Assembly: GCF_014644295.1 (NCBI RefSeq)
Contig: NZ_BMKK01000006.1
Location: forward strand, 62,001 to 126,000
DNA: 64,000 bases
Source of the DNA: Emticicia aquatilis
Lineage (GTDB): Bacteria; Bacteroidota; Bacteroidia; Cytophagales; Spirosomataceae
Reading direction: 5' to 3'
Below the pieces are notes generated by a model. It worked only from the letters and a program-made list of their open reading frames with translations, did no database searches and was not told the origin of the DNA. Shown here piece by piece: positions 14,734-34,232 of this stretch. Position 1 is the stretch's first letter, and each line of letters starts with the position of its first letter. Position numbers and translations under genes: made by a program.

Positions 14734-15696
14734 TTATTTAATGGTTATTCCAAATTGTCGCTTTTCTCTAACTATATGCATCAATCCCAACAAAAATAGG
14801 AAAGGAATGTAGTATATTATTCTATTTGCTGATTGATTAATAATCCAAATATTTAATATTAATTGTACTCCTGCATATAAAATCGTAACTTGTAAGTGAG
14901 ACAAGTTATAACTATATACCAATATCTGAAATAAATGAAGTTTATGTGCTTTAAAGATATTTTGTTTAAGCTGCAAACGATAAAGTATAGTGTAGATACT
15001 ATCCATTCCATAAATAGTGAATAAAAATATATACTTCCAATCGTGGCTTAGATATATCAAGTGGCCTACACAAAAAATCAGTATGTATGCAATCCCAATA
15101 CTTCCAACATCACCTCCAAAACAAATTGCTTTTTTTCTAAAGTTAAATATTAAAAATACTAAAACACTAATGATAGTTATGTTAGGAAATCCTTGTTCAA
15201 TGAAAAGAAAAACATAATTATTTATATAAGTCAATGTCAATAATATTACCAAACTGTAAGTACCAGTAATACCGTTAATTCCATCCATAAAGTTATAGGC
15301 ATTAAGAATACCAACTCCTATTATCACAATAGGTAAAGTCCAATAATAAGAGTAATGGGTATAAAATGACACCTCACAGAGCAGTAAAACCAATGCTCCA
15401 AACTGTGTAAACAAACGATAACGATTAGGTACTGTGACAATATCATCTATAAAACTGATGATTACTAAACAAGTGAATCCTAAAAAAAAATAAGGGTAAG
15501 AATAGTCTGAATAATAATAAAAATAAATCAAGCCTGCAATCCAATAAACTATTCCTCCACCTCTGATAGTAACTTTAGAATGTAAACTACGCTCATTGGG
15601 TTTATCAATAATATTAAAATAATTAGCTATTTTGATATATAGTATCTCAAAAATAAACAAAAAAGCACCCCAAATTAATAGACTATAATTTTTCAT
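14734..15696 (-). CDS. WbpL/WecA-like undecaprenyl-phosphate sugar-1-phosphate transferase
   Basis: A 320-residue polytopic membrane protein of the MraY/WecA family; the ATG at 15696 is preferred over a TTG two codons upstream. Family motifs seen are PNERSLHSKVTIRGGG (about residues 33-48), the cytoplasmic FIDD, the NAYNFMDGINGITG loop with catalytic Asp, FGGDVGSIG and the His-rich KAHKLH segment. The enzyme starts glycan assembly by moving a HexNAc-1-phosphate to the lipid carrier. It overlaps the preceding reductase-like gene by 14 bases. With the WbpM-like and WbpV-like proteins it recalls the QuiNAc/FucNAc initiation set of Pseudomonas O-antigen loci, but the exact sugar is inferred. Confidence 0.88.
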   Translation of the reverse strand: MKNYSLLIWGAFLFIFEILYIKIANYFNIIDKPNERSLHSKVTIRGGGIVYWIAGLIYFYYYSDYSYPYFFLGFTCLVIISFIDDIVTVPNRYRLFTQFGALVLLLCEVSFYTHYSYYWTLPIVIIGVGILNAYNFMDGINGITGTYSLVILLTLTYINNYVFLFIEQGFPNITIISVLVFLIFNFRKKAICFGGDVGSIGIAYILIFCVGHLIYLSHDWKYIFLFTIYGMDSIYTILYRLQLKQNIFKAHKLHLFQILVYSYNLSHLQVTILYAGVQLILNIWIINQSANRIIYYIPFLFLLGLMHIVREKRQFGITIK

Positions 15697-16591
15697 CAGC
15701 AAAACATTTAATAGTAATTCGTAAGCCTGCTTCGGAAGATATAGGTAAAGGTTTCTTCAGTGCTTTTAATAATTTTTCACTGCTCACTATATAATTTTCA
15801 GTTAACTTTTGTAAACGCTCAGTATCTAATGGTAGATGACATATACTGCCTATTTTTGCAATAAATCTAATGACGGATTGATTAATAAACCAAATTTTTG
15901 ACCTTCGATTTAGCACTTCTCCCATAAGTGTAATTAAACGATTTGTGGACAGCGGTATTTCATCAGCTACATTGTAGATACCCGAAGGAATATCTTCTTG
16001 ATGTATTAATTCATCAATAACAAAGCATAAGTTTGTAATACTCAAAAAAGAGCGTTTATTTTCAAAACAGCCTAAAGGATATGGAATTCCTTTACTTACT
16101 ATTTTATACAATAAATTCAAGTTTCCTTTATTCTCATTTCCATGAACCATGCAGGGACGCAAAACATATACTCTTTTTTCATTGGGTATTGGTTTTGAAA
16201 AAATATACTGCTCTGCCAATAATTTAGACTTCCCGTAGTGAGTTGAGGGATTAGGTATAACTTCTTCCGTTAGAATACCATCTACGCTATCTGCAACAGC
16301 TTTTACTGAACTTAATGTAATAAAAACCTTAGCATTAGAGGCTAAGAACGCATCAAATAGTTTCTTAGTTAAAGCAGTATTTACTTCGTAGTATTCTTCC
16401 AATTTTGTTTTTTTTTTTGTGTCGTGTGCTTTACCAGCTAAATGTATGATTGTATCTGTCTCTAATCTAATAAGGTCTTGATTATTGTTTCTTAGTAAAA
16501 CCTCTGATACATTATTTTCATTAATCTCTAAATACTTTTTTAAGTTTTTTCCAATAAATCCAGTAATACCAGAAATCTGTATATTATACAT
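15683..16591 (-). CDS. SDR sugar-nucleotide epimerase/reductase (WbpV-like)
   Basis: A 302-residue extended SDR. The NAD(P) motif is GITGFIG at residues 8-14, and the catalytic pair is YGKSK near residue 138. LSSVKAVAD, VLRPCMVHG and the C-terminal substrate domain match UDP-4-keto-sugar reductases and 4-epimerases often found beside WecA/WbpL-type transferases. The probable role is to reduce the 4-keto sugar made by the WbpM-like dehydratase, giving UDP-QuiNAc or UDP-FucNAc. A UDP-GlcNAc 4-epimerase cannot be excluded. It begins 2 bases from the GT2 gene and overlaps the WbpL-like gene, so translation is probably coupled. Confidence 0.8.
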   Translation of the reverse strand: MYNIQISGITGFIGKNLKKYLEINENNVSEVLLRNNNQDLIRLETDTIIHLAGKAHDTKKKTKLEEYYEVNTALTKKLFDAFLASNAKVFITLSSVKAVADSVDGILTEEVIPNPSTHYGKSKLLAEQYIFSKPIPNEKRVYVLRPCMVHGNENKGNLNLLYKIVSKGIPYPLGCFENKRSFLSITNLCFVIDELIHQEDIPSGIYNVADEIPLSTNRLITLMGEVLNRRSKIWFINQSVIRFIAKIGSICHLPLDTERLQKLTENYIVSSEKLLKALKKPLPISSEAGLRITIKCFADEKL

Positions 16592-16593
16592 AA

Positions 16594-17415
16594 TTAATTA
16601 AATTGCTCTAAAGTTTTTTTATTTATTTTGTGTCTTTCCTTATCAATAAAAAAACCCCATTTTTTATAATAAGAGAAAGCAGATTTTATGAAAATCTTGA
16701 ATAATCTAAAACTTTTATTTGCACCTCGCTCATATTCATGATAAACCGATACTAATGGAAAATAAAGTGTCTTATATTTTTGGTGTACTCTCCTCGACAA
16801 ATCCCAATCTTCAAAATACATAAAAAATGTATCATCATATAGCCCAACCTCTTTAATGGCATTTAAATTCAACAAGGAAAAGCACCCCGAAAGAACAGGT
16901 ACATTACAAATTTGCTTTTGAGGTACCTTCCTTAATTCATATAAGTCGATAAACTTTCGAAATGCTGTTTTGGGCATCCCTATTTTTCGCCAAATAATTT
17001 GAATTGGAGATGGCAATAGTTTTGGCAAATACTGAATTGAACCATCAGGATATAAAATCTGAGGCATCAACATACCTACAGATGAATCCATTTCAATAAA
17101 CGCAATCATTGTTTCGATGACATTGCCATAAAAAAAAATATCTGGATTGATTACAAAATGATATTTAGCCCCCATATCTATTGCAGACTTAATAGCAATG
17201 TTATGAGCAGCTCCGAATCCGATATTCGCATTATTGTGTACATATTCTATTCTATCATCAAGGGTTTTTAATTTTTTTAAACTATTACTTGTCGAATTAT
17301 CAATTAAATAAAGTCTTACATTTAATTCTGTATCTAAAAAACTTTCAATTGCTTTTCTTAAAGTCTCTGAATCATTATTATACAGTACTATACTGCCAGC
17401 TATTACACATTTCAT
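16594..17415 (-). CDS. GT2 family glycosyltransferase
   Basis: A 273-residue cytoplasmic transferase of the WbbL/rhamnosyltransferase-like branch of family GT2. Seen are SIVLYNNDSETL at the start, LIDNSTSN, NNANIGFGAAHN (the nucleotide pocket), NPDI in place of DXD, PVLSGCFSLL, and FFMYFEDWDLSRR carrying the catalytic Asp region. It would add one sugar to the lipid-linked glycan. It overlaps the upstream GT4 gene by 4 bases (ATGA type). Donor and acceptor cannot be told from sequence. Confidence 0.88.
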   Translation of the reverse strand: MKCVIAGSIVLYNNDSETLRKAIESFLDTELNVRLYLIDNSTSNSLKKLKTLDDRIEYVHNNANIGFGAAHNIAIKSAIDMGAKYHFVINPDIFFYGNVIETMIAFIEMDSSVGMLMPQILYPDGSIQYLPKLLPSPIQIIWRKIGMPKTAFRKFIDLYELRKVPQKQICNVPVLSGCFSLLNLNAIKEVGLYDDTFFMYFEDWDLSRRVHQKYKTLYFPLVSVYHEYERGANKSFRLFKIFIKSAFSYYKKWGFFIDKERHKINKKTLEQFN

Positions 17416-18530
17416 TTATCCTGAAGTAAAATTTGAAATAATTCCTTCCAATTAGAGGCAAAAGGAGATAAAATATTGAGGTCTTTATTACCATCAAAAG
17501 TTATATCATTATTAATGTGTTTTCTCATTAAATCAGCTAAAATTTTAGGATTATTAGCATCGAAAAAATTTACTTTTTGATAATACCCTAAGGTTTCGTG
17601 GGCATAAGGCAAGTCCACTAATAAAATAGGTTTATTAAAATCTTTAAATTCCGATATAGGAAGTCCCCAAGACTCTAATGTTGAAGGAAAAATTAAAACA
17701 TCACATTCTTTATATACTTTAAACACCTCTTCTCTGCTCAATAAGCCCAAAAAGTTGATATTAGGCAAATGTTTATACTTATTGTAAATTAATTTAGAGT
17801 AAATATTTTCACTACCATCTAATGTTATATAAACTTCAAAGTTAGTAATTTTATTTTCATATAGAATTGCACAAGCATCCCCAATTACTTCAAAATTTTT
17901 AAATGGTCTAGGGAAGGCAGGAAAAAAGAAAGTTTTATTTTTTCCATATTTAAAAGCTTCTTTTATATTTGCTGGCACAATTGTGGTTGTTGGTTTAGCA
18001 ACAATTATTCTTTCTTTTGAAATTGAAAATAAATCACTAAAAGCATCTCTCATCCATGAAGATTGCGTAATTAAATACTTATTAGCCTTTATATTAATTT
18101 TATATATATATTTATATAATAATGAAAAGAAAAAAAGAGTTGGCTGCAAATAAATATCTCTAAAATAAACATCTCTAAATATTGAAGCATTATGGCAGTA
18201 AACAGCTTGCTTTTCAGCTTTTACAAACGGAGATACATCATGCAATGATAGCCATAAATACACATCCCATTTTTTTGATAATTTATAAAAATAAAAAAAT
18301 TCGTAAAATAAACGATTTACATATGACTTCCTTGATTTAGGAAATTGTACAAATTCAATATTACTCGATTGATAATGTTCTACCAATTTTATACTGTGGA
18401 CCAGAATTTTAATATTATATTCATATCTATCATGTACCAATTCCCTTATACAATCATCTAATATACTAAAGGGGCCACCTTCAAATAAATTAATTGCAGA
18501 TATTACGATAGTTTTTTTCACAGTTGGCAT
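17412..18530 (-). CDS. GT4-like glycosyltransferase
   Basis: A 372-residue protein with the GT-B fold pattern of family GT4. It has an N-terminal ISAINLFEGGP loop, VKAEKQAVYCHN, and in the second domain ECDVLIFPSTLESWGLPISEFK, which carries the paired Glu residues that bind donor nucleotide in this family. The ATG at 18530 overlaps the stop of the polymerase gene in TGATG form. A GTG one codon upstream is also possible. Sugar specificity is unknown. Confidence 0.82.
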   Translation of the reverse strand: MPTVKKTIVISAINLFEGGPFSILDDCIRELVHDRYEYNIKILVHSIKLVEHYQSSNIEFVQFPKSRKSYVNRLFYEFFYFYKLSKKWDVYLWLSLHDVSPFVKAEKQAVYCHNASIFRDVYFRDIYLQPTLFFFSLLYKYIYKINIKANKYLITQSSWMRDAFSDLFSISKERIIVAKPTTTIVPANIKEAFKYGKNKTFFFPAFPRPFKNFEVIGDACAILYENKITNFEVYITLDGSENIYSKLIYNKYKHLPNINFLGLLSREEVFKVYKECDVLIFPSTLESWGLPISEFKDFNKPILLVDLPYAHETLGYYQKVNFFDANNPKILADLMRKHINNDITFDGNKDLNILSPFASNWKELFQILLQDK

Positions 18531-19903
18531 CACTTTACTTTCAAAAATTTAAATAGAATAATAACTTTATTGAATAAACTGGGTATTAAAACAATGGATA
18601 TCCATGCACCTGTCAAATATGCAACTGCTGGCATTAACGCACCTCTCAAAATAAAAAAAATAAATATGGATGAGTACACTGAAAAAATTTCATCGTAAAT
18701 TCTTTCAGTATTATACATTTTTTCAAGCCAAACTACAAATAGAGCCAATATAAAACCATAGAGAATGATACCAAATATTCCAAAATCAATATATCCTTCA
18801 ACAATAAGAGTAGACGAAATGTTATTGAAATGTAGTCCTTCAAACTGCATTAAAAAGTTTCCGATTAATTCACCAGTTGATATAGGCTTACATTCCCAAA
18901 TTGAACGAGGAACCCAAAATGTGATTGTCCCTAATAATTGATTTCCAAAAGCATATCCATTTTTTCTTACATATAAAATACTTGCCGGTATATTAGCCCA
19001 AGCATCATAATGTAAATCGACAAAATGCTCTTTTATTAATTCTCCATAGTTTACAGATTTTTCTCCCCACTCGTCAATGGATATATGTGTTAACAAAGAA
19101 CTTAGTGGAAATAAGACTACCATCATCACAAATAAAAGTGCAAAAATTTTTATATTTGAATTAATTTTTTTTTTAAATACGAATATAAGTAATGAAATGT
19201 AAACAGGCCCTATTGCATTTCGTCTATCTAACAGCGGATTCTTTGTTAAAAAAACTAAGAATAGTAAAATTATAAACCCCACAAATACATAAAAATTCTT
19301 TTTTTTTGTCAATATATATACAGACATTGTCACAAAAGGTATCATGTAAAGAACTTTTCTTTGAAACATCGCTACTATTCTTTCATCAGCATCCAACTCT
19401 AACTGAAATGTAGATATTATAATTGCCATTTCATTATAGCTCCTTTGTGCAATTATGACACTAAAAAAAAACAATATATACACCATTCTAACACTGTTAG
19501 AACTAAACTTACCTACATGCACTTTAAGCGTTGTGTTTTGTAATATAATAAATAATGCAATAAAATATGTTGTTAAAAAAACAAAAACAAAAAGATTGCC
19601 ACATAATAATAAATCAGTGTCATACTTTGCGTTATTTATTAATTCATAAGAATCATTGTCCAATTGTAAAATTGGAGCAAGAAAATAAAACAAAAACATA
19701 AATACAATTACAGCACCACCAGCTATACTAAACCTTTGAATATGTATGTAGTAATATGTCCCAACGAAAATTGGCAATAAATTTAAAATAAAAGATATTT
19801 TTAAAATCGAGTCTAAGTGAAGTTGAGAAACGAAAATTATTAAACTCAGAAAAACTACTGCTAATAAGCAAATAATCCTCTTGCTCTTTGTTGTATTTAT
19901 CAC
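18530..19903 (-). CDS. Wzy-like O-antigen/capsule polymerase
   Basis: A 457-residue protein with 10-12 predicted membrane segments and one larger external loop (about residues 270-340, WGEKSVNYGELIKEHF to WVPRSIWECKP). This layout is typical of Wzy polymerases, which join repeat units at the periplasmic face. Motifs are weak in this family, so the call rests on topology and on its position in a locus that also has a flippase and transferases. It starts with GTG at 19903. No in-frame ATG occurs before the third membrane segment. The DNA is strikingly AT-rich. Confidence 0.72.
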   Translation of the reverse strand: MINTTKSKRIICLLAVVFLSLIIFVSQLHLDSILKISFILNLLPIFVGTYYYIHIQRFSIAGGAVIVFMFLFYFLAPILQLDNDSYELINNAKYDTDLLLCGNLFVFVFLTTYFIALFIILQNTTLKVHVGKFSSNSVRMVYILFFFSVIIAQRSYNEMAIIISTFQLELDADERIVAMFQRKVLYMIPFVTMSVYILTKKKNFYVFVGFIILLFLVFLTKNPLLDRRNAIGPVYISLLIFVFKKKINSNIKIFALLFVMMVVLFPLSSLLTHISIDEWGEKSVNYGELIKEHFVDLHYDAWANIPASILYVRKNGYAFGNQLLGTITFWVPRSIWECKPISTGELIGNFLMQFEGLHFNNISSTLIVEGYIDFGIFGIILYGFILALFVVWLEKMYNTERIYDEIFSVYSSIFIFFILRGALMPAVAYLTGAWISIVLIPSLFNKVIILFKFLKVK

Positions 19904-19955: not shown

Positions 19956-20834
19956 TTATTTCACAAGAAATTTATTGGAATAAATATCAAATTCTTGCTT
20001 TTTTTCGAAATTATTAATGTAATTCTTATTCAAAAAAATCGTAGGCATCAAAGCATAGCGTATTTGTAATAGTAATCGCTTTTCAGTTTTAGCTGGCTGT
20101 CCTTTATGGAAGCCATAAGTATCTTCAATAAAAGATAGGCCTTTCTTACCTGTGAATTTTCTAAACTTATTTTTACCAAATAAGGCCTCCACTTCTGTAT
20201 CTTCATATCTTCTTATATCTAACCCTTTAGGTTCTAAATGACTACCCTCCACAAAGACATGAGGCCCCGACTCTTCGGTTACCTCTGTTAAATAAATAAA
20301 ATATTTGAGAAAACGAATACCATCATTATCTCTATGCAGATTTTCTGCTTGCTCTGCCTTTTCATGACCTGGCAAGGACCACCATGCCTGAATACTATCA
20401 ATAATAGGTTTACATCCAAAGTATCGCTCACAAACCTCCAATGCAATTGGATTATTGGCAATTTCTAATAGGCGTGGTATTGCTAAAACGTTCTCTATTT
20501 GTGCTGTATGTACTTCTTTGGGAGCATCTTCAATGTTAAATTTGCCAAGATATGGTTTCCACGGGTCAAAGCAAATCATATTCGTTAAACTATCTCTTAG
20601 CTCATCAGCTTCTTCAGTTGTAATAATATTTGGCATCTCACAATACCCTACTTCTTTTAATTTACTATATAGTTTCTCCCCCTGAATTGTCTTATTTTCC
20701 GAAGTAGGTAAAAACTTAGATATAATATCCGCAACAGCTTTACGAATGTGTGGTTTTCTTATTTTCTCTTGAATTAACTGAAATGCAAAAACCCATAGTG
20801 GAGCTCTTTTTCGAGAATTAATTGTATAATTCAT
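19956..20834 (-). CDS. Phytanoyl-CoA dioxygenase (PhyH)-like protein
   Basis: A 292-residue protein that fits the Fe(II)/2-oxoglutarate oxygenase pattern. LHRDND supplies the HxD metal ligands near residue 167, YGFHKG the distal His, and RLLLQIRY the Arg that would bind 2-oxoglutarate. GPHVFVEGSH is a typical PhyH strand. The family hydroxylates small molecules, lipids and some natural products. Here the gene sits between the polymerase and a KpsS-like enzyme, 4 bases from the latter, so glycan or lipid-carrier hydroxylation is a reasonable guess. The substrate is unknown. Confidence 0.78.
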   Translation of the reverse strand: MNYTINSRKRAPLWVFAFQLIQEKIRKPHIRKAVADIISKFLPTSENKTIQGEKLYSKLKEVGYCEMPNIITTEEADELRDSLTNMICFDPWKPYLGKFNIEDAPKEVHTAQIENVLAIPRLLEIANNPIALEVCERYFGCKPIIDSIQAWWSLPGHEKAEQAENLHRDNDGIRFLKYFIYLTEVTEESGPHVFVEGSHLEPKGLDIRRYEDTEVEALFGKNKFRKFTGKKGLSFIEDTYGFHKGQPAKTEKRLLLQIRYALMPTIFLNKNYINNFEKKQEFDIYSNKFLVK

Positions 20835-20838
20835 ATGT

Positions 20839-22257
20839 TTATTTTTTAATTGAATCTATTATCAAATCTATAGTATCTTTATAGTCATCTATTGACATTG
20901 ATATTTTATAATATCCATACACTGTTGACACCGCATTATTAGAATTAGCTATAGTATCTCTCGATGATTGAGATAAAATCTTAAATAGCTGTTCAAAATT
21001 ATCAATTTTAGTAACTAAGGGGTGTTTTTCATAAAATACCTTCCCTAACACGATTACTGGCTTACCCAATACCAGAGCCTCAAATCCTACTGTACTTGTC
21101 AGTGTAATCACTTTGACACATCTTTTTATTAAAATCTTGGCATCTTGACTAAACGGAATTATTACTACATTAGGGATTTGAGATAGTTTTTTATAAAATG
21201 ACAACGAAGGAAAGCCAGCAGCACTAATATGGTCTTTAACATATAATTTATACCCAAATGGCAAATTAAATGCGATATTTATAATGGTATTGAGCTCATC
21301 ATTAAGGTGCCTTGCCCAAATTGATGTAGCAGATTCTGGATGAAAATGTAGTGGATATAAAAAGAATAAATCATTTAACGAGTTATCAATAGGCTCATAG
21401 TATTTTTTTATTATTATAGGAAGTTTTATTTTACGTTTTAACTGCATCCAAAAAGTATTAATTGAAGATACAATCGGGTTTCCTAACTGATAAGCATATG
21501 GCACATCATTCTTTCTTTCTTTTTTCAGATAAATCAACGACTTAATTAAATACCTAATTTTATCTTTCCTAAGGTAAAGCTGTGCCATTGAATCGGTAGC
21601 ATTTAGCCCAACTAATTGCATGTAATCTGGCTGAATATTACTAAAGTTTAATAGGTATTTATCTATATATTCTACTGCCTTTTCATCTAATATATCAGCA
21701 TTATATAAAGCATTATTATACTCTTCTATGTATTGTCTTGAATCTGCATACACTGCATTAAGTACCTCATATCTATTAGGTAAACGTGAATAAATTAATC
21801 CTTTATATTTCGCATTAAATAAGGTAGAGATGTTATATGCTGCGTAGTTAAAACTATTTGAAACAGCTTCGTGCCACACTATATCAATTTTTTCTCTTTC
21901 AAATATTTCATAAAAAAAATTATATAAGCAAACCATTACTTTATTTGTATAATCTTTGGTATGCTTGTTCCCTATATGATTTGCTCTATCATAATCGCTA
22001 AAATATGACTCCCAAATATTAAAATTAGCAATAGAAGTATTTAATAATTTTAAATCATATTTATCTTTATTTAATTTAAAATATTGACTAAAAATGTAGT
22101 CAACAGAAAAATCTAAATTTAATGTATATTGATAAAAAAGACTCTCAGATGCAACTATTACATCAAACCCTTCGTTTTCCAATCTTTTGTATAAATCATT
22201 TGTGAATATTTTCACATCAGGAGCATTATTTAATAATAATAGAATCTTTCTTCTCAT
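20839..22257 (-). CDS. KpsS/Kdo-transferase-like capsule biosynthesis protein
   Basis: A 472-residue protein. The N-terminal half has no motif I recognise. The C-terminal half has the pattern of capsule polysaccharide biosynthesis proteins and Kdo-type transferases: YPLHFHPESATSIWA, LPFGYKLYVKDH, and TLTSTVGFEALVLGKPVIVLG near residues 390-415. Proteins of this type transfer 3-deoxy-ulosonic acids such as Kdo. Since the locus makes a nonulosonic acid, this is a good candidate for the transferase that adds it, but that is inference. It overlaps the flippase gene by 32 bases. Confidence 0.65.
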   Translation of the reverse strand: MRRKILLLLNNAPDVKIFTNDLYKRLENEGFDVIVASESLFYQYTLNLDFSVDYIFSQYFKLNKDKYDLKLLNTSIANFNIWESYFSDYDRANHIGNKHTKDYTNKVMVCLYNFFYEIFEREKIDIVWHEAVSNSFNYAAYNISTLFNAKYKGLIYSRLPNRYEVLNAVYADSRQYIEEYNNALYNADILDEKAVEYIDKYLLNFSNIQPDYMQLVGLNATDSMAQLYLRKDKIRYLIKSLIYLKKERKNDVPYAYQLGNPIVSSINTFWMQLKRKIKLPIIIKKYYEPIDNSLNDLFFLYPLHFHPESATSIWARHLNDELNTIINIAFNLPFGYKLYVKDHISAAGFPSLSFYKKLSQIPNVVIIPFSQDAKILIKRCVKVITLTSTVGFEALVLGKPVIVLGKVFYEKHPLVTKIDNFEQLFKILSQSSRDTIANSNNAVSTVYGYYKISMSIDDYKDTIDLIIDSIKK

Positions 22258-23410
22258 GTTTTAAAAATGATATTATTAATAATAAGATTACCATCAAATA
22301 ATACGATAACTTAATAAATACAAGGAATTTGATGTTTGTTATGTTGTTGTGATATATAAAGAACAGCACAGTATAATATATAACTGTACTGTATATAGTA
22401 TTTTTTAAAATAATAAGCCTTTTATCTACTGAATGAAAATAATAAAATAGCACAGCATATATAGAATACAACACATTACCTACCAACGTTATTTGTAGCA
22501 AATTTAAGTTTTGAACATATAAAGGAAAAAAACTTATAATATATGAATATAATACATATATAAATAAGTTGGAAATAATTGACAAAAACAGTATTTTTTG
22601 TATGAATTTACTGTAATACGCCTTATTTGTGTTTAAAATTAAATCCTTTATATGAACTTGTATCAATGATGTTGGTATAATATTCACTAATGAGAAAAGA
22701 GTAAATATAAATATAAAATCTGCCGCAATATCATGAAAATATTCGCTTATTACTATTCTATCAACTGTTGAACTAAGCATTAGAAATAGTGTATTAAGAA
22801 ATAGTAGATAACTATTCCTCAATACTTCAGCAACATATTTGAAAACTTTAGGAAAAAAATGTATTATTTTAATTAATGTTTTAGAATATACTATTAGATA
22901 CAAAATTATATATGATAGTAAAATTGCAGAACAGTAAAAAAAAAAGTTTTTGTAAAACACCAATAACAGAAATGGAATTATCGGAAATAAAACATCATTC
23001 AATAATAGCAATTTAGAAAATGAAATTAAATCACCTTTAGAACGATAATAAGATTTTAAACTATTAACTAATGCGTAGAAAACCCCTGATAAACTTAAAG
23101 ACAGATATATATAATTTGTATAACCTAAAATAATCCAAAAAACAAATAGTAATATTGATAATAAAGTAACAATAAAATTTAAACTAACAATATAAAATAC
23201 ACCCCTATAATTAGACGATTGCGGCAGTAGTTTTTCCAAAGCCTGACGCCCACCTAAATCAGTTAAATCGTACATTTGAAATATTGATTTTCCAACATTA
23301 AATTGCACAAAATCATTTTTATTAAAAAAAGAGGTAATGTAAAATTGTGTAACTAATGATATTAAAGTTGATAGATATAGTAATAATGTTGTAAAAAATT
23401 TGGTTTTCAT
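22226..23410 (-). CDS. Wzx-like polysaccharide flippase
   Basis: A 394-residue very hydrophobic protein with about 12 predicted membrane segments. Its start resembles the polysaccharide biosynthesis (Wzx/RfbX) branch of the MOP exporters, for instance FVQFNVGKSIFQMYDLTDLGGRQAL. Its likely role is to turn lipid-linked repeat units across the inner membrane. It is a little shorter than the typical 410-480 residues. The start overlaps the pseI stop in TAATG form. The DNA is very AT-rich, like the polymerase gene. Confidence 0.75.
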   Translation of the reverse strand: MKTKFFTTLLLYLSTLISLVTQFYITSFFNKNDFVQFNVGKSIFQMYDLTDLGGRQALEKLLPQSSNYRGVFYIVSLNFIVTLLSILLFVFWIILGYTNYIYLSLSLSGVFYALVNSLKSYYRSKGDLISFSKLLLLNDVLFPIIPFLLLVFYKNFFFYCSAILLSYIILYLIVYSKTLIKIIHFFPKVFKYVAEVLRNSYLLFLNTLFLMLSSTVDRIVISEYFHDIAADFIFIFTLFSLVNIIPTSLIQVHIKDLILNTNKAYYSKFIQKILFLSIISNLFIYVLYSYIISFFPLYVQNLNLLQITLVGNVLYSIYAVLFYYFHSVDKRLIILKNTIYSTVIYYTVLFFIYHNNITNIKFLVFIKLSYYLMVILLLIISFLKHEKKDSIIIK

Positions 23411-24453
23411 TAGTAACTTGTCAACGGTGTCCCTTCGGTATAATTTATCTTTGCCACTTTCCCCAACAACCCCTCATAATACTTAGGTTGCATTCCATCC
23501 CCTGGACGAATCACTCTAATATTTTTATCAGTAAGTAGTTCTCCAGCTTGAATATCTTTCACTACATAAATTGAGCGTTTGAAAAGCAAACTCTTCTTCT
23601 CAGATTCTTGCACCCCATATTGCACAACTCCTAAAGACTGCCAGGCTCTTTCTGTTTCAATAACTAAAGCTTTCAATTCATCAGGTTCAAGAGAAAAAGC
23701 TGAATCAACGCCACCTTCGGCTCTACTCAAACAAAAGTGTTTTTCAATTACTGTAGCACCCATCGTTACAGCGGCTATCGGTACTCCAATTCCCATGGTA
23801 TGGTCACTCAATCCAACCTCACAATTAAATAATTCTTTTAGATGAGGAATCGTTCGAATATTAGAGTTTTCTGGAGTTGCCGGGTAATTACTTGTACATT
23901 TTAATAAAATTAAATCGTTACACCCATTCTCTCTCAGTACTCTTACAGACTCATCTAAATTGGCTATTGTACTTGCTCCCGTTGACATAATCACAGGTTT
24001 ACCTGTTTTTGCGACCTTCTTTAGTAATGGATGATGATTGTTCTCAAAAGAGGCAATCTTGTGAGCAGGAGTATCTAATTTTTCCAAAAAATCGACGGCT
24101 GTATCATCAAACGGTGTTGAGAAGCAAATAATCCCATTATCTGCCGCACACTTATACATTGCGTCATGCCATTCCCAGGGCGTATAGGCTTCTTGGTATA
24201 GTTCGTATAAATTTCGACCAGCCCAAAGTGAAGTAGAATCCTCAATATCAAATAATCCACCCCTTTGATTAATTGTTAATGTATCAGCCGTATAAGTCTG
24301 TAGTTTTATGGCATCTGCACCAGATTTTGCGGCTATTTCTATAATCTTTAAAGCTCTTTCGATTGACTGGTTATGATTCCCAGACATTTCAGCAATAATA
24401 AAAGGTTTGTAAGATTGCCCTATATTATAATTTCCTATTTTCATAAAACACAT
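23410..24453 (-). CDS. pseI: Pseudaminic acid synthase (NeuB family)
   Basis: A 347-residue protein that condenses a 2,4-diacetamido-trideoxy hexose with phosphoenolpyruvate to form a nonulosonic acid. The NeuB TIM barrel shows FIIAEMSGNHNQS (residues 18-30), DAIKLQTYTADTLT, GLSDHTMGIGVP and EKHFCLSRAEGGVDSAFSL, which fit the pseudaminic (PseI) branch better than the sialic acid branch. A C-terminal SAF (antifreeze-like) domain follows from about residue 285. An ATG at 24444 is an alternative start. It overlaps both neighbours by one base, so it belongs to the pse operon. Confidence 0.9.
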   Translation of the reverse strand: MCFMKIGNYNIGQSYKPFIIAEMSGNHNQSIERALKIIEIAAKSGADAIKLQTYTADTLTINQRGGLFDIEDSTSLWAGRNLYELYQEAYTPWEWHDAMYKCAADNGIICFSTPFDDTAVDFLEKLDTPAHKIASFENNHHPLLKKVAKTGKPVIMSTGASTIANLDESVRVLRENGCNDLILLKCTSNYPATPENSNIRTIPHLKELFNCEVGLSDHTMGIGVPIAAVTMGATVIEKHFCLSRAEGGVDSAFSLEPDELKALVIETERAWQSLGVVQYGVQESEKKSLLFKRSIYVVKDIQAGELLTDKNIRVIRPGDGMQPKYYEGLLGKVAKINYTEGTPLTSY

Positions 24454-25235
24454 TACTTATTTACACCTTCAGATAAATGATAATCAAATAATCTAACAGG
24501 AAGATTGATTTGATTTATGGCATATTTAATATCAAAAGGAGTAAACTGGGTATAATGAAAAATACTTGCTCCTGCTACTCCTGTTACATTAACTTTATCT
24601 AATAAATCTGCAAAATGTTCGGGTTTCCCAGCACCTCCACTCGCAATAACGGGTATATTAGTGTCTTTGCGTAGAGTATTGAATAATTCAATATCAAATC
24701 CATTCATCATTCCATCATTCTTAACATCATTAATGAATAATTCTCCCGCCCCTGAATCTTCCATTTCTTTTATAAAATCATTTGCTGAACGATTTATTTC
24801 GTTTTCATAATGATATACCTTATACTCATTATTTACAGATTTAACATCTACTGAAACAACGATACATTGTGAACCAAATATCTTAACAGCCTCTCGTATA
24901 AAACTTGGATTTTTCAAGGCAACGCTTTTTAAAACTACTTTATCAGCTCCTATTTTAAGCAAATTATTAATATCTTCAATAGAGTCAATACCTCCACCAA
25001 TTGTTACAGGCATAAAACATTCGTTTATTACTTGCTTAACAACTGCTAAATTTATTTTACGTTTTTGTTTTGAGGCAAAAATATCAACAAATACTAATTC
25101 ATCTACGTTTCGAGAATTATAAACCCTTGCTACTTGCGTTGGGTTGCCAACCATACGAGGATTATCAAATTGCTTGGTTTTAACTAATGCAAACCCATTG
25201 AATGATAATATAGGTATAACTCTAATTTTAAGCAT
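24453..25235 (-). CDS. HisF-like cyclase subunit of acetamidino-sugar synthesis
   Basis: A 260-residue HisF-fold protein. It has the usual phosphate-binding blocks (MPVTIGGGIDS, IPVIASGGAGKPEH) and the second catalytic Asp region NDVKNDGMMNGFD. The first catalytic Asp of true HisF (in the early CLDV segment) is absent: the sequence there is PILSFNGFALVKT. This divergence and the place between hisH-like and pseI genes identify the HisF2/AglZ type. These partner a glutaminase and the N-acetyl-sugar amidotransferase to form acetamidino groups, rather than making histidine. It overlaps the hisH-like gene by 8 bases. Confidence 0.88.
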   Translation of the reverse strand: MLKIRVIPILSFNGFALVKTKQFDNPRMVGNPTQVARVYNSRNVDELVFVDIFASKQKRKINLAVVKQVINECFMPVTIGGGIDSIEDINNLLKIGADKVVLKSVALKNPSFIREAVKIFGSQCIVVSVDVKSVNNEYKVYHYENEINRSANDFIKEMEDSGAGELFINDVKNDGMMNGFDIELFNTLRKDTNIPVIASGGAGKPEHFADLLDKVNVTGVAGASIFHYTQFTPFDIKYAINQINLPVRLFDYHLSEGVNK

Positions 25236-25830
25236 AAAAATCTATAAAGTTTTTTAATACCTGTAATCCTGCAGTTTGACTTTTTTCAGGATGAAATTGT
25301 GTACCAAAAACATTGTTTTTTTGAACAACTGCTACTAAATCACTCCCATAGTTAACTGTTGCAGCTACATCATTAATGTTTTTTGCATTAAAAAAGTAAC
25401 TATGTACAAAATAGAAATTACTATCTGTAAGTTTGTCAAAATACTGAGGAATCTTAATACTAATATTATTCCAACCAATATGTGGTACAGGTAAATTAGA
25501 TTCAGGAATTCTAATTACTTCACCTTCGATAAATCCCAAACCTTCTGTTAGACCATCTTCATATCCTTTTTCAGCTAATAGCTGCATCCCCAAACAAATG
25601 CCGAGAAATGGTTTACCTTCTGTAACCTTCTCTCTCAAAAAAGAGATAAGATTTCTTTGTTCTAAATTCTCCATCGCTTGGCGAAATGAACCAACACCAG
25701 GAAGTATAATGTATTTTGACTGATTAATTTTTTCAAAATTAGCAGTTACGATACTATCAACATTTAAAAAGCGAAGTGCTTTCTGAACAGAAGCCACGTT
25801 ACCCATTCCATATTCTACTATTGCCACCAT
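25228..25830 (-). CDS. HisH-like glutaminase of acetamidino-sugar synthesis
   Basis: A 200-residue class I glutamine amidotransferase. The catalytic Cys lies in FLGICLGMQLL, and the His and Glu in QFHPEKSQ, so the triad is intact. The ATG at 25830 is preferred over a TTG two codons upstream. Within this operon it would release ammonia from glutamine and pass it through the HisF-like partner to the amidotransferase encoded immediately upstream. No other histidine-biosynthesis genes are present in the window, which argues against a role in that pathway. Confidence 0.88.
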   Translation of the reverse strand: MVAIVEYGMGNVASVQKALRFLNVDSIVTANFEKINQSKYIILPGVGSFRQAMENLEQRNLISFLREKVTEGKPFLGICLGMQLLAEKGYEDGLTEGLGFIEGEVIRIPESNLPVPHIGWNNISIKIPQYFDKLTDSNFYFVHSYFFNAKNINDVAATVNYGSDLVAVVQKNNVFGTQFHPEKSQTAGLQVLKNFIDFYA

Positions 25831-25870
25831 TATCAAGTATAATTAGGTCATACCAAAGTGAAAACTTTCT

Positions 25871-27025
25871 CTAAATTACCTCAAAATTTCGTACTAAGTT
25901 CTTATTGTCATGTCGTAAAAACCTTCCATTTTCATCTTGTGCGAAAAGTACAGGATTGGTAAATGAATCAATTACTGCATCTATCTCATCTATTGTCATA
26001 CCAGAATATTCCATAAAAGATTTAATAGCATAGTGGGGATATTTTCCATCATATTCTTTAACTAAGTATTTGGCTTCTTCTCTTGTCAATCTCTTATTTC
26101 GTATATCTATGCACGCATGGTCAGTTGCCCTTCCAAAACCGTATTTAACAAATTTAAGGTAATCATGTAATCCAACTAATTTTTCATCCAAATTTTCATA
26201 GTTAGTGTAAGTACCTTCGATGGGGCCATCTTCCTTAATAGAAAAACCTGTTTCCTGAAGTATAATATCAAGTTGCTTTCTGGCATCCCAAAAGAAATAA
26301 TGACCTAAAAATATTCCTTTTATACCAACACGATTGATATCTTCGTCAGAAGGATAAAAATATGGTGTTAATTCTTTCGCAGTAATACCTTCAACCCCAA
26401 TCATATCTTGAATTCTATTTCCCAATAGCCCCCCAAACTCTTCCAACCATTTCCGATTTAAAACAGGAACTCTTGTTGCTTCCATAGGGCCACCGTATTC
26501 CTGCTGAGAATTTTCACCCCATATAATGAGTGGTATTCCAAATTTTACTGCAACTATAACAGGTATGGTAAAAATTCCTATATGATTAGGCCACATCTCA
26601 TCGCCTACTCTCTTAAAGGATTCGATAACCATTTTTTTATAGACTTGATGATTCTTTTTAAAATGAATCAAATCAATTCCCATTTTTGTAATATTATCAA
26701 TATTCCTTTGCCCTAACTCTGTCACATACGTTGTTTCAAAACATACAGCTAATGGGTTTAACCCATATTTTTTAGCCATATAGCATTGATATGTACTATC
26801 TTTACCCCCACTTACTGGAATAATACAATCATACCCAATTTCACTATCTTTTTTTTTGTAAGTAGAAATAATCTCCACGAATGCTTTTTCCTTAGCAATC
26901 CAGTCGATTTTATAATCTTTTTCTTCTGCAGCTTGACACGCCGAACATACTCCTTCCTCATCAAAAAAAAGGTCTGGCTTCGTTTCGGGGAAAAGACATT
27001 TTTTACAATATCTTAACTCTAACAT
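25871..27025 (-). CDS. N-acetyl sugar amidotransferase (PseA/WbpG type)
   Basis: A 384-residue protein. The N-terminus has two Cys pairs (CKKC at residues 8-11 and CSAC near 28-31) that probably bind zinc, followed by the ATP pyrophosphatase P-loop PVSGGKDSTYQC near residue 70. The family converts an N-acetyl group on a nonulosonic-acid precursor to an acetamidino group, using ammonia from the HisH/HisF-like pair encoded next. All three genes are in order in one operon. The call is strong; the exact sugar is inferred from pseB, pseC and pseI. Confidence 0.9.
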   Translation of the reverse strand: MLELRYCKKCLFPETKPDLFFDEEGVCSACQAAEEKDYKIDWIAKEKAFVEIISTYKKKDSEIGYDCIIPVSGGKDSTYQCYMAKKYGLNPLAVCFETTYVTELGQRNIDNITKMGIDLIHFKKNHQVYKKMVIESFKRVGDEMWPNHIGIFTIPVIVAVKFGIPLIIWGENSQQEYGGPMEATRVPVLNRKWLEEFGGLLGNRIQDMIGVEGITAKELTPYFYPSDEDINRVGIKGIFLGHYFFWDARKQLDIILQETGFSIKEDGPIEGTYTNYENLDEKLVGLHDYLKFVKYGFGRATDHACIDIRNKRLTREEAKYLVKEYDGKYPHYAIKSFMEYSGMTIDEIDAVIDSFTNPVLFAQDENGRFLRHDNKNLVRNFEVI

Positions 27026-27034
27026 ATTAATTAT

Positions 27035-27688
27035 TTATTTCTTTTCTAACAAAAACATACAATCTATTAAATTCTTGTCGGTAATGTATGGATAAAAATC
27101 CTTTTGAATTACGTCTAAATTTGGGAATGTTTTTTTGTAAATACTACAAAAATCGGCTTTCCATAAAAAGCCCTCGTTTCCTCTGTAATTTACACTTTCC
27201 ACATCTCCTTCAATAAAATACTCAAAACCTGTGATGTACTTTTTTGAACATCTCACTATTTCTGACATAAAACCGTGATGATTTTCAGGAGCAATATGAA
27301 TAAGTACACCATTTGTGCATACCAAATCAAAATAGTTGTCTTTAAACGGCAACTCAAATCCAGAGCCTTGAATAATGTTAATATTTTGAGTGTATTTTTT
27401 CGCTTGTTCCACCGCATATGGCTGTAATTCTACACCATAAAGATTTGTAAATCCCATTTTTTGTAAACCTACTAATTGCATTCCTGTATTGCAGCCAACT
27501 TCTAAAATTTTAGCATCTTTGGGCAAATTACCTAAAATTTTCTCATTTATAGTTGTTTTCGTTACCCCGTAAGTATCTAAATAGAATTTATCCCAATCTC
27601 TTGTATCTCGTGAATTTCTATCTGTGTATTCTTTTCCAAAATCACTTGACCAAAAGTTTTCTTGTGTATTTTTAATTTCAATTGCCAT
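27035..27688 (-). CDS. Pseudaminic-acid-type SAM methylase
   Basis: A 217-residue class I methyltransferase. SAM motif I is KILEVGCNTGMQ near residues 59-70, followed by LYGVELQPYAVEQAK. The N-terminus TQENFWSSDFGKEYTDRN and the region DVESVNYRGNEGFLWKADF match the methylases repeatedly found in pseudaminic acid loci. The role is thought to be methylation of the sugar or its precursor. It overlaps pseC by 11 bases and is followed after 9 bases by the amidotransferase gene. Confidence 0.83.
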   Translation of the reverse strand: MAIEIKNTQENFWSSDFGKEYTDRNSRDTRDWDKFYLDTYGVTKTTINEKILGNLPKDAKILEVGCNTGMQLVGLQKMGFTNLYGVELQPYAVEQAKKYTQNINIIQGSGFELPFKDNYFDLVCTNGVLIHIAPENHHGFMSEIVRCSKKYITGFEYFIEGDVESVNYRGNEGFLWKADFCSIYKKTFPNLDVIQKDFYPYITDKNLIDCMFLLEKK

Positions 27689-28847
27689 TATAATAGTTTT
27701 TAATTGAGTTTATTACAAAATCTTGTTGTTTATCGGTTAAACTTGGATACATTGGTAAACTTAGGCATTTTTCATAATAGGCTTCCGCAATAGGGAAATC
27801 TCCATTTTTCCATCCTAAACCTTGATAGTAAGGTAAGGTATGAACAGGTATATAATGCACTTGAGCATAAATCTCATTATCTTTCAAATAATTATATAAT
27901 CCTAATCTATTGTCAACTTGGATTACATACAAATGATAAGCATGTCCTCTTGGATTATGAAGTGTTTTAATTTGTGTATTTTCAAAAGCTGCATCGTATT
28001 TTCTTGCTATTTCTATACGCCTTTCAATTCCTTCATGAGCCCTTTGTAATTGCGATATTCCTAAAGCTGCATTTAAATCTGGTAAACGATAATTATATCC
28101 CAATTCTTGCATTTCATAGTACCATGCACCATCCTTTTGAGTTTTCTTTACAAACTTATTACTATCCTTCGTAATTCCATGTGTACGAAGCCTTAATAAT
28201 TTTTCATATAGCTCCTTATTATTTGTAGTAATCATACCACCTTCACCACAAGCAATATGTTTTACTGGGTGAAATGAAAAGATAGCTAAGTCGGCATACT
28301 GGCCATTACCACAATTTTGTTGGACACCATTAGAATCCATAAAAAAACCTCCTGGTGAATGACAAGAATCTTCTAAAAGCCAACAATCAAATTCATCCGC
28401 CAATTGTCTGAAAGATTCCATATTTACAGGAAAACCCGCAAAATCTATTGGTATAATGCCTTGAAAAGTGCCTTTGGGAGAATTTACGAGTAATTCTCGC
28501 ACTTTATTAATATCTAAAACAGCAGACTTCTCTTCAATATCAGCAAAAATGACCTCACCTCCACAGTACAAAACACAATTCGCTGATGCTGCAAAAGTAA
28601 TAGGAGAAGTAATAACTTTGGAATTTTTATTTACTCCTAAAGCTAATGCTGATAAATGCAAAGCAGCTGTCCCATTAGATACGGCCACGGCATATTTACA
28701 GCCAATGTAATCGGCAAAAACGTTTTCAAAAGCTTCAATAGTAGGTCCTTGAGTCAGGAAGTTTGACTGCAAAGATTTAACAACTACATCAATATCATCT
28801 TCTGTGATACATTGTCTCCCATAAGGAATAGGTGTCATTAAACTCAT
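27678..28847 (-). CDS. pseC: UDP-4-amino-4,6-dideoxy-N-acetyl-altrosamine transaminase
   Basis: A 389-residue PLP-dependent aminotransferase of the DegT/DnrJ/EryC1 fold, acting second in the pseudaminic acid pathway on the 4-keto sugar made by PseB. Seen are PYGRQCITEDDIDVV at the start, VAVSNGTAALHLS, LLEDSCHSPGG (PLP-binding Asp replaced by the usual family pattern ED), the Schiff-base Lys in FSFHPVKHIACGEGG, and LGYNYRLPDLNAALG. Length and order are normal for PseC. It overlaps pseB by 4 bases. Confidence 0.93.
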   Translation of the reverse strand: MSLMTPIPYGRQCITEDDIDVVVKSLQSNFLTQGPTIEAFENVFADYIGCKYAVAVSNGTAALHLSALALGVNKNSKVITSPITFAASANCVLYCGGEVIFADIEEKSAVLDINKVRELLVNSPKGTFQGIIPIDFAGFPVNMESFRQLADEFDCWLLEDSCHSPGGFFMDSNGVQQNCGNGQYADLAIFSFHPVKHIACGEGGMITTNNKELYEKLLRLRTHGITKDSNKFVKKTQKDGAWYYEMQELGYNYRLPDLNAALGISQLQRAHEGIERRIEIARKYDAAFENTQIKTLHNPRGHAYHLYVIQVDNRLGLYNYLKDNEIYAQVHYIPVHTLPYYQGLGWKNGDFPIAEAYYEKCLSLPMYPSLTDKQQDFVINSIKNYYNGN

Positions 28848-29857
28848 ATATCAGATGAAACGTGGTGTTTTATAAGACTCCTTAAACTTTCTACACTTTC
28901 CCATTCTGTATTACTTCCAGAACTATAACTAAAACCTTCTGAAACTTTCTTAGCATTAAACGCTAAAATGAACTCTGCTAAATCCCATCTATGTGTTGCG
29001 GGAAGAATTGTATAATATTTTCCTAAATCATACGTATAGTAAGAATCAGAGGCAGTTATCATTTCTTCATGAATCTTTTCGCCAGGTCTAATGCCCACCA
29101 CTGGTTTTTCACAATCTGGGCCAATTGCTTCAGCAATATCCGTAATTCTGTATGATGGTATTTTGGGCACAAATATTTCTCCGCCCCAAGCATGCTCTAA
29201 TGCGTGCATGACCATATCAACTCCTCCTGTCAGAGATATATTAAAACGTGTCATATTTGGGTCTGTAATAGGCAGAATACCCTCCTTTACTTTATTCATA
29301 AAAAAAGGAATAACTGAACCATTAGACCCCATTACATTTCCATAACGCACAACAGAAAATCTTATAGGATTCCAACCTTTTATATTATTTGCGGCAACAA
29401 ATAGTTTATCGGAAGCTAATTTCGTAGCTCCGTATAAATTAATAGGTGCAGCCGCTTTATCAGTTGATAACGCAACAACTCTTTCTACATTTGTTTCAAG
29501 GCAGGCGTTAATAACATTTTCAGCACCAAGTATATTTGTCTTAACACATTCCATTGGGTTGTACTCTGCAATGGGTACGTGCTTCATTGCTGCTGCATGA
29601 ATTACATAATCAACACCCTTTAATGCTCTTTTTACTCTCTCAAAATCTCGAACATCTCCAATAAAAAATCTCATTTGAGGGTATTTATTTTCTGGATATT
29701 CTTGAGCCATCTGAAATTGTTTCTGCTCATCTCGTGAAAAAATAATAATTTTGTGTACGTCAGGATATGTGTTTATAATATGCTTTGTCAGTGCTTTTCC
29801 TAAAGAGCCTGTGCCTCCTGTAATAAGAATTGATTTTTCTTTCAATGTAAATGTCAT
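28844..29857 (-). CDS. pseB: UDP-GlcNAc 4,6-dehydratase (inverting)
   Basis: A 337-residue SDR, the first enzyme of pseudaminic acid synthesis. It has the NAD motif ITGGTGSLGKAL (residues 12-23), AAAMKHVPIAEYNP, and an active site with STDKAAAPINLYGATK that keeps the catalytic Tyr, unlike the WbpM-like enzyme at 11176. It ends with GIRPGEKIHEEM. This is the first gene of the long minus-strand operon and has an unusually long upstream gap (284 bases). Confidence 0.95.
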   Translation of the reverse strand: MTFTLKEKSILITGGTGSLGKALTKHIINTYPDVHKIIIFSRDEQKQFQMAQEYPENKYPQMRFFIGDVRDFERVKRALKGVDYVIHAAAMKHVPIAEYNPMECVKTNILGAENVINACLETNVERVVALSTDKAAAPINLYGATKLASDKLFVAANNIKGWNPIRFSVVRYGNVMGSNGSVIPFFMNKVKEGILPITDPNMTRFNISLTGGVDMVMHALEHAWGGEIFVPKIPSYRITDIAEAIGPDCEKPVVGIRPGEKIHEEMITASDSYYTYDLGKYYTILPATHRWDLAEFILAFNAKKVSEGFSYSSGSNTEWESVESLRSLIKHHVSSDI

Positions 29858-31200: not shown

Positions 31201-31235
31201 CAAATATAAGTATTTTGATGAATTAGTTCACCAAA
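31201..31235 (-). promoter_or_regulatory. Probable ruvB promoter
   Basis: On the minus strand TTTG (31235-31232), a 23-base spacer and TATATTTG (31208-31201) form a slightly stretched Bacteroidota promoter. It overlaps the last codons of the upstream gene and places the transcript start about 27 bases before the ruvB ATG. Confidence 0.45.
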
Positions 31236-33943: not shown

Positions 33944-34232
33944 AATTCGTTAATTGTTAGGCTACTTAGATAAACATACAAACCTTAGAAGTGGTTTTTA
34001 TAAATTAAACGACTTTTGAAATTCTTTTATTTGAAACTTCATTACTAAAATAAAAGCTAATATCAAAAAATCGAACAATAATAACACCAATTCTACTACA
34101 AAGACGTAATTTTACAAACAATAGTTACAAAAAATACGTAACACGCCATTAAATCCGTTTAATAATTATTTAGATTGTATTTGGAATGAAATTTGCTTAG
34201 AAATATCCCGTTGAATGCTTTTAATTTAGGCA

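Follow-up and report, generated by a model that had tools for sequence, protein, structure and literature searches.

How can a gene cluster for pseudaminic acid (Pse) function if it encodes only some of the pathway proteins? This question is raised by a stretch of 64,000 nucleotides from Emticicia aquatilis (contig NZ_BMKK01000006.1, positions 62,001 to 126,000), referred to here as the window. The first-pass annotation had described pseB, pseC, a methylase gene, an amidotransferase trio and pseI in series, with overlaps or gaps below 40 bases. Order and spacing were confirmed by analysis of the open reading frames in the window and the families by NCBIfam models, with which the proteins from PseB to PseI were scored against the curated cut-offs. 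All genes are located on the minus strand. PseB, an inverting UDP-GlcNAc 4,6-dehydratase (28844..29857; TIGR03589, 513.9 bits, cut-off 407.75), overlaps by 4 bases with the aminotransferase PseC (27678..28847; TIGR03588, 461.1 bits, cut-off 423.5), which overlaps by 11 bases with a pseudaminic-acid-associated methylase (27035..27688; TIGR03587, 220.2 bits, cut-off 112.05). After a gap of 9 bases follows a WbuX/PseA-type N-acetyl sugar amidotransferase for the acetamidino group (25871..27025; TIGR03573, 379.7 bits, cut-off 203.2) and, after 34 bases, a WbuY/HisH-type glutaminase (25228..25836; TIGR01855, 225.4 bits, cut-off 105.4). The latter overlaps by 8 bases with a WbuZ/HisF-type subunit (24453..25235; best family TIGR03572, 271.1 bits, below the cut-off of 299.7), which shares one base with the pseudaminic acid synthase PseI (23410..24453; TIGR03586, 486.7 bits, cut-off 340.25). 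Thus, pseudaminic acid biosynthesis is represented in the window by equivalogs of PseB, PseC and PseI. The trio adjoins nonulosonate genes and was assigned to the acetamidino-forming WbuXYZ/PseA proteins, with WbuZ below its cut-off. The same trio was found beside PseI in three further loci (L034, L038, L056) with 72-74% identity of WbuX. An acetamidino derivative of Pse is known in Campylobacter jejuni, according to the accessible part of PMC3426422.

The segment 23410-29857 is the opening of a Wzy-type O-antigen or capsule cluster on the same strand. It is followed by a probable Wzx-type flippase (22226..23410), assigned by its hydrophobic sequence and its place in the cluster. Scans of this protein with family models gave no match; it is 31% identical to a part of a 403-aa protein of the matching Runella limosa locus. 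Next are a KpsS-like glycosyltransferase, probably using a CMP-sugar (20839..22257; PF05159 Capsule_synth, 45.9 bits), a PhyH-like dioxygenase, probably a tailoring enzyme (19956..20834; PF05721, 23.9 bits, gathering 22), and a probable Wzy-type polymerase (18530..19903) with matches below the cut-off to TIGR04370 (33.1 bits, cut-off 40) and PF14296 (19.6 bits, gathering 26.6). Two glycosyltransferases, GT1-like (17412..18533; PF00534) and GT2-like (16594..17415; PF00535), an NAD-dependent sugar epimerase/reductase (15683..16591; PF01370) and a WecA-like lipid-carrier sugar-phosphate transferase (14734..15702; PF00953) were also assigned. A CapD/WbpM-like dehydratase (11176..13119; PF02719, 397.8 bits) is a probable further member.

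PseF, PseG and PseH had been reported as not encoded in the window, and this was verified. With PseF, GNATb (see below), a PseH-like protein and a formyltransferase (one query each), two GNATb-PseH fusions and two PseG proteins as tblastn queries, neither these proteins nor relics of pseF, pseH, GNATb or PseG were detected in the window (best E 0.31). One proposal was that the KpsS-like or the PhyH-like protein replaces PseG or PseH. A GT-B fold is expected for KpsS-like proteins as well as for PseG, and the KpsS-like and PhyH-like genes also occur close to PseI in the loci L034 (Runella limosa) and L030 (Emticicia agri). However, PhyH and Capsule_synth are other enzyme classes, and the two proteins look like a tailoring enzyme and a transferase, respectively. 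Three other Emticicia loci (L031, L032, L033) contain neither gene in stretches of 15-21 kb and no PseG either. Since these loci do without both genes in the stretches covered, we regard such a replacement as extremely improbable.

The whole assembly (36 contigs) was examined for the remaining proteins. For PseF (TIGR03584) one match over the cut-off was detected, at C1:236411 with 304.3 bits. The PseH model (TIGR03585) gave 14 matches in the genome, none of them over the cut-off; two adjoin PseF. A GNAT protein of 155 aa on contig C1 reached 48 bits against the PseH cut-off of 93.1 and contains the acetyl-CoA loop. It is PseH-like only. Another PseH-like protein, at C6:22266 (50.7 bits), was set aside, as no recognisable sugar gene was found among its translated neighbours. 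PseG (TIGR03590) gave no match in the assembly at E <= 0.001 and was likewise not detected when 11 genomes of the genus were searched. Thus, the suggestion that the missing genes lie elsewhere held for PseF and a PseH-like protein, both on C1, but not for PseG. Six genes serve to identify a Pse locus; judging from its gene content, the present lineage is expected to make a nonulosonic acid, with no recognisable PseG in the 11 genomes examined.

A GNAT-fold protein, named GNATb, is encoded at C1:237088-237657, where relatives carry PseG. In this lineage GNATb occurs alone or fused to a PseH-like domain. On C1 the genes of PseF, GNATb, the PseH-like enzyme and a second PseI, 61% identical to PseI of the window, are mutually adjacent. 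A second PseB and a second PseC (67% and 62% identical) were found in the final 2.3 kb of contig C4, which ends 78 bases past the second PseC. Judged from the sequence, the pseudaminic pathway is split between the window cluster, the genes on C1 and those on C4.

According to the first-pass annotation, the window locus would be a spare copy if another complete operon, including pseB, pseC and pseI, were found. Second copies of all three genes exist, but B/C and F/H/I are located on different contigs, and a full second pse operon was not found elsewhere in the genome. Hence, the window cluster cannot be called self-sufficient, nor is it simply a spare copy. A decaying copy, made redundant by C4 and C1 genes which make all Pse, would agree with the second PseB, PseC and PseI. 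It would also agree with the lack of PseF, GNATb and PseH in the window locus and with their partial loss from the related locus of Runella limosa. Yet all seven window genes from PseB to PseI have full-length, tightly overlapping open frames. Moreover, the trio and the methylase adjoin the cluster's own wzx, wzy and transferase genes, and no member of the trio was detected among the ten C1 proteins scanned. We therefore consider a redundant copy quite improbable. In Runella limosa, GNATb and pseF of the acetamidino locus are decayed, and an undamaged set is present elsewhere in the same genome; this arrangement would support a supply in trans. The nearest relatives of the window PseI adjoin GNATb and a PseH-like enzyme.

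On the whole we favour, with some reserve, the reading that the window cluster uses PseF, the acetyltransferase and GNATb of C1 in trans, and that GNATb performs the UDP removal of PseG. The earlier idea that an unrecognised protein replaces a step would then probably apply to PseG, with GNATb on C1, and not one of the two window proteins, as the best candidate.

The distribution of both proteins was investigated in related genomes. PseG was over the cut-off in 36 of 150 genomes of the family. The 58 family genomes with PseI over the cut-off contained PseG (36) or GNATb (20), in no case both; the remaining two have PseG below the cut-off (126.3 bits in G090, 67.6 bits in G107). Among 60 PseI-bearing loci, many of them fetched owing to a GNATb or PseG match, GNATb (limit 120 bits) was found in 30, PseG in 20, both in none and neither in 10. 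These ten include L034 with a decayed GNATb, L171 with PseG below the cut-off and L157 with a distant GNATb relative (72 bits, below the limit); in L049, L053, L057, L059, L062, L063 and L064 nothing was recognised as PseG or GNATb. Apparent co-occurrence with PseG in L036, L051 and L058 was rejected, as the GNATb matches of 40-50 bits are other acetyltransferases by position. At phylum level (395 genomes) GNATb was detected in 10, PseG in 57 and both in none, with about 1.4 expected; in one search at most eight candidates per genome were scored. This agrees with exclusivity but is weak alone and not significant by itself. Plasmid records searched at 1e-8 gave no GNATb match.

In the PseI tree the slot switched between PseG and GNATb about 10 times (9-10 in bootstrap), five of the switches being forced by well-supported branches. 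The five independent pairs were all in opposite directions (sign test, p 0.0625). Displacement of PseG by GNATb is well supported by these patterns. An alternative source of the exclusivity could be that GNATb indicates a different sugar.

The make-up of the loci was compared. In L031, L032 and L033 from Emticicia, PseB, PseC, a methylase-like protein (27-30% identical to the window methylase), PseF, a GNATb-PseH fusion and PseI form one operon. The record of L033 is titled complete chromosome. Within the stretch bounded by PseB and PseI, L039 and L150 encode only PseB, PseC, PseF, the GNATb-PseH fusion and PseI. GNATb co-occurs with PseH-like enzymes in some loci, with a formyltransferase and no PseH-like match in L050 and L151, and with ATP-grasp ligases in L155 and L158; in L156 it is fused to such a ligase. 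PseG likewise co-occurs with PseH-like enzymes or with a formyltransferase (L036, L041). Thus, the acyl step varies independently of PseG and GNATb.

GNATb belongs to PF13420 and matches only acetyltransferase families. By this family and its top fold matches, which are acetyltransferases, it is no homologue of PseG; it may function like PseG without being one. Of 24 PseH-like proteins, 18 contain the acetyl-CoA pyrophosphate loop [QR]xxGx[GA] in register, and of 34 GNATb proteins none does; in L155 the pattern occurs elsewhere in the chain, out of register (1/34). The first Arg of the loop is present in 23 of the 24 PseH-like proteins; that of L150 has His for Arg. In six PseH-like proteins, too, the loop is not perfect, so that its loss alone is no proof. 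Furthermore, an Asn and a Ser found in all 24 PseH-like proteins are changed to Arg in 33 and to Leu in 27 of the 34 GNATb proteins. Invariant in GNATb are R34, R42 and E160 (34/34); R145 and H166 are kept in 33. To our knowledge, no activity is on record for any GNATb, and no GNAT-fold enzyme hydrolysing a nucleotide sugar is known.

These features bear on two other functions. GNATb may be a second acyltransferase for another position or donor, with an unlinked host hydrolase or phosphatase removing UDP and a differently acylated Pse as the sugar. Its family and its top sequence and fold matches argue for this. A HAD-like protein adjoins GNATb in L156, and the accessible part of PMC7874193 describes Aeromonas islands lacking PseG, one subgroup of which has a HAD-family hydrolase. 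We rate this function as unlikely, given the missing loop and the missing Asn and Ser. GNATb is also kept alongside formyltransferase or ATP-grasp ligases, L039 and L150 hold no other candidate between PseB and PseI, and the mutual exclusion with PseG would be left unexplained. Somewhat less plausible still, and improbable in our view, is a role of GNATb as a pseudoenzyme, which would assist the PseH-like enzyme or PseI as a partner without catalysis and enable either one or a shared interface to remove UDP. The frequent fusion to a PseH-like domain and the loss of cofactor features are consistent with it. However, many GNATb proteins are unfused, some beside formyltransferase instead of a PseH-like enzyme, and the strictly kept charged residues named above resemble an active site.

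In the preferred reading, with GNATb acting as hydrolase, the window cluster would be that half of a split pathway which is specific for modification and polymer, and it would feed a surface polysaccharide of the Wzy type. PseB and PseC would form UDP-4-amino-4,6-dideoxy-AltNAc. Two further steps would be supplied in trans from C1:236405-239138, namely N-acylation through the PseH-like enzyme and activation with CMP through PseF. GNATb, lacking the acetyl-CoA loop and matching catalytic positions, would remove UDP and provide the free sugar for PseI. From the trio and the methylase an acetamidino, possibly methylated, derivative is predicted, and a local transferase, with the KpsS-like protein as candidate, would use the CMP-sugar. 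In more general terms, the chances seem about even that a GNAT-fold protein lost acetyl-CoA use, became a UDP-sugar hydrolase and was repeatedly swapped with the GT-B-fold PseG in pseudaminic operons of Bacteroidota. If so, GNATb would represent a new enzyme family, possibly re-using an acetyltransferase pocket for the next pathway step. PseG would then have been displaced non-orthologously, along an evolutionary route that is conceivable. Loci that otherwise seem "incomplete" would have their gap closed, and GNATb could serve as a new biocatalyst in the preparation of Pse.

Related systems were compared as far as the accessible parts of the sources allow. The canonical PseBCHGIF pathway is described for C. 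jejuni and Helicobacter pylori (PMC7910423). The families of PseB, PseC, PseI and PseF are common to Emticicia aquatilis; in contrast, its assembly gave no PseG, a GNAT-fold protein occupies the slot and the genes are on three contigs. In the five-gene flm set of Aeromonas caviae, PseG and PseH domains are combined in one protein (PMC3426422, PMC7874193). The set is compact, and pseF and pseI flank a gene for a two-domain protein, as in L031-L033, but the domains are PseG and an acetyltransferase in A. caviae and GNATb and a PseH-like domain in Emticicia. The lack of a PseG orthologue in Pse loci has already been noticed in Aeromonas islands, for which chimeric proteins were suggested and, in the part seen, no GNAT-type substitute was proposed (PMC7874193). 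Acinetobacter baumannii has the modules psaABCDEF, psaABCGHF and psaABCIJF, in which nucleotidase and acyltransferase genes are exchanged in an otherwise fixed pathway; there, however, PsaI and PsaJ share 78.9% identity with PsaD and PsaE (PMC9676051, PMC6586298). In a literature search of partly accessible sources, with most subscription journals outside its scope, no report of a PseG substitute or of a GNAT protein in the place of PseG was found.

The best structural and profile matches of GNATb are H. pylori PseH (4ri1; accessible part of PMC4363471) and SpeG-type spermidine acetyltransferases, from which it differs by the absent acetyl-CoA loop and matching catalytic positions. The predicted structure (pLDDT 92.3) has the fold of the GNAT superfamily. 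Its top Foldseek match was 4ri1 (E 1.1e-13, TM 0.76/0.78), with nearly equal scores for SpeG structures. In the sequence profile, spermidine/diamine acetyltransferases were the best solved relatives (8fv0, E 5.3e-10) and 4ri1 was sixth (4.4e-7). Perhaps GNATb descends from the PseH line. In the model of GNATb only, the strand 97-104 is followed by a single helix (106-131), and the fusion model shows two helices (106-109 and 113-131).

The seven genes for PseB, PseC, a pse methylase, the acetamidino trio WbuX, WbuY and WbuZ, and PseI were found as open reading frames on the minus strand at 23410-29857, where the first-pass annotation had placed them. Neighbouring genes either overlap by 1, 4, 8 or 11 bases or lie 9 or 34 bases apart. 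Six of the seven exceeded a curated NCBIfam cut-off; for the HisF-like WbuZ its own family was the best match, with a score below the cut-off. The reported absence of PseF, PseG and PseH from the window also held, as none was detected among the scanned proteins, nor did the complete window contain a relic of them when searched in translation. A probable Wzx is encoded 3' of PseI. The downstream part of the cluster further includes a protein of KpsS type (PF05159), one of PhyH type and a probable Wzy polymerase (its two model matches are below cut-off), and is completed by two glycosyltransferases, an epimerase and a WecA-like transferase. As a whole, it resembles an ordinary Wzy-type cluster for O-antigen or capsule. 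Judged by the families of trio and methylase, the product is likely an acetamidino, perhaps methylated, Pse derivative. Near the glycan cluster, a CHU_C-type protein with PKD domains and a PorP/SprF-like protein (31223-35300) point to type IX secretion.

For the missing steps it had been proposed that the enzymes lie elsewhere, that a step is replaced or that the sugar is another one. The genome (6.75 Mb in 36 contigs) contains a single PseF above cut-off, at C1:236411. Its neighbours are two GNAT proteins and another PseI, which is 61% identical to the window PseI. One GNAT protein is PseH-like; the other, at C1:237088-237657, is termed GNATb. A second PseB (67% identity to the window copy) and PseC (62%) are located at the end of contig C4, where PseC ends 78 bases before the contig end. 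PseG gave no match in any of the 36 contigs. Thus, a merely split pathway accounts for PseF and a PseH-like enzyme, both on C1, but not for PseG, and mostly explains the earlier finding. The C1 locus (L003:9875-11092) has no pse methylase. Six kin loci (L160, L164, L173, L174, L175 and L177) carry one between a DinB-like gene and pseF; the window methylase (27035-27688) is 59-61% identical to these six.

Among 150 family genomes, PseG was above cut-off in 36 (any match in 42), PseI in 58 and PseF in 51. None of the 11 genomes from the genus of the window, among them its own genome, yielded a PseG. PseI was above cut-off in ten of these; the exception is G128, whose contig stops shortly past pseF and a 20-residue GNATb piece. 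PseF was likewise above cut-off in 10 of 11; the locus of G094 has another cytidylyltransferase-family protein.

In three Emticicia loci (L031-L033) the operon order is PseB, PseC, a methylase-like protein (27-30% identity to the window methylase), PseF, a 339-aa protein and PseI. The 339-aa protein corresponds to the two C1 GNAT proteins fused, GNATb being N-terminal and the PseH-like part C-terminal. In other genera PseG occupies the slot of this fusion, and in L167 and L180 PseG is itself fused to a PseH-like domain. GNATb was detected at 160 bits or more in 20 of the 150 family genomes; below that, a relic in G095 (156.7 bits, 13 stops) was followed by the next match at only 31.6 bits. The 58 genomes with PseI comprise 36 with PseG, 20 with GNATb and none with both; in the last two, G090 and G107, PseG was below cut-off. 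Fisher's test of this cross-table gave 1.3e-13, a value that ignores kinship. On a PseI tree of 54 proteins, 51 of them labelled GNATb or PseG (loci with neither gene were excluded), the label switched 10 times (bootstrap 9-10), at least five times on well-supported branches. GNATb and PseG were opposite in all five independent pairs (sign test p 0.0625, the minimum possible for five pairs), and the genera g13, g38 and g47 each include both kinds. In a phylum sample of 395 genomes GNATb occurred in 10, PseG in 57 and both in none, which is not significant alone. From this displacement we infer that GNATb performs the step of PseG.

Four reasons make it improbable that GNATb is simply one more acyltransferase. 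Firstly, the acyl step varies by itself while GNATb stays: besides PseH-like enzymes, a formyltransferase occurs with PseG (L036, L041) or GNATb (L050, L151), and an ATP-grasp ligase occurs with GNATb (L155, L158) or fused to it (L156). Secondly, features needed by an acetyltransferase are lost. Of 24 distinct PseH-like proteins, 18 had the acetyl-CoA loop in register and 23 its first Arg; of 34 distinct GNATb, none had either. Since six PseH-like proteins have an imperfect loop, five of them with the Arg retained, the loop alone is not decisive. An Asn column of the PseH-like proteins (24/24) is Arg in 33 of 34 GNATb, and a Ser column (24/24) is mostly Leu (27/34). H. pylori PseH is reported to bind acetyl-CoA partly via Asn131, with Tyr138 as probable general acid and Ser in its place in RimL and MccE (PMC4363471); the two columns may correspond to Asn131 and Tyr138/Ser. 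In the predicted GNATb model the helix from 106 begins almost directly after strand 97-104, and the PseH-like half is modelled with a loop region (269-276) at the corresponding place. Thirdly, GNATb keeps a strict residue set of its own, with R34, N35, R42, Q52, W93, S101 and E160 invariant in 34 of 34 and E99, R145 and H166 kept in 33. The fourth reason is the predicted fold (mean pLDDT 92.3), whose first match among solved structures was H. pylori PseH, SpeG spermidine acetyltransferases being close behind. The sequence profile reverses this order, placing SpeG-type proteins ahead of PseH. GNATb is therefore placed close to PseH and SpeG among GNAT-fold proteins; a derivation from PseH with the UDP-sugar pocket retained is an attractive assumption.

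The lack of PseG matches throughout the genus, combined with a GNAT-fold substitute that did not co-occur with PseG, is to our knowledge new. The literature searched, which included few subscription journals, contained no description of PseG being replaced by a GNAT-type protein. Pse islands without PseG are described for Aeromonas in PMC7874193, whose authors suggested chimeric proteins. For Acinetobacter, nucleotidase and acyltransferase pairs are reported to be swapped for others (PMC6586298, PMC9676051).

The closest relatives of the window PseI are the PseI proteins of L056, Runella limosa (L034) and Emticicia. The same trio occurs in L038 and L056, where GNATb and a PseH-like enzyme separate WbuZ from PseI. 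This pair is missing at that place in the window, whose WbuZ and PseI genes overlap by 1 base. Runella limosa shows an intermediate state: its acetamidino locus has decayed copies of GNATb and pseF beside open PseH-like and PseI genes. The genome of Runella limosa has another locus, composed of PseB, PseC, methylase, PseF, fusion and PseI, in which GNATb and pseF are open. Because the decayed locus coexists with an open second set, supply in trans is plausible for the window cluster. The decayed GNATb gene (13 stops) and the pseF fragments lie at about 9000-9500 of L034, and also in L170, the other locus genes being open.

Further variants were observed. GNATb is fused to a PylC-like/ATP-grasp ligase at L156:5917-7470 and stands beside an epimerase and ATP-grasp fusion in L155 and L158; these three loci may represent atypical branches of Pse acylation. 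On the contig of the Emticicia agri locus L030, four genes (L176:8985-11915) for a GNAT, an aldo/keto reductase, a cytidylyltransferase-family protein and a class III aminotransferase lie between PseC and the GNATb-PseH fusion. L176 has no standard PseF and is possibly a further pathway variant; a keto reductase and a class III-type aminotransferase are also reported for Aeromonas islands (PMC7874193). A distant GNATb relative (L157:7197-7736 in G273, 72-81 bits) is accompanied by PseB-like, PseC-like and WbuX-like genes and an only remote PseI (25%), perhaps representing another sugar pathway.
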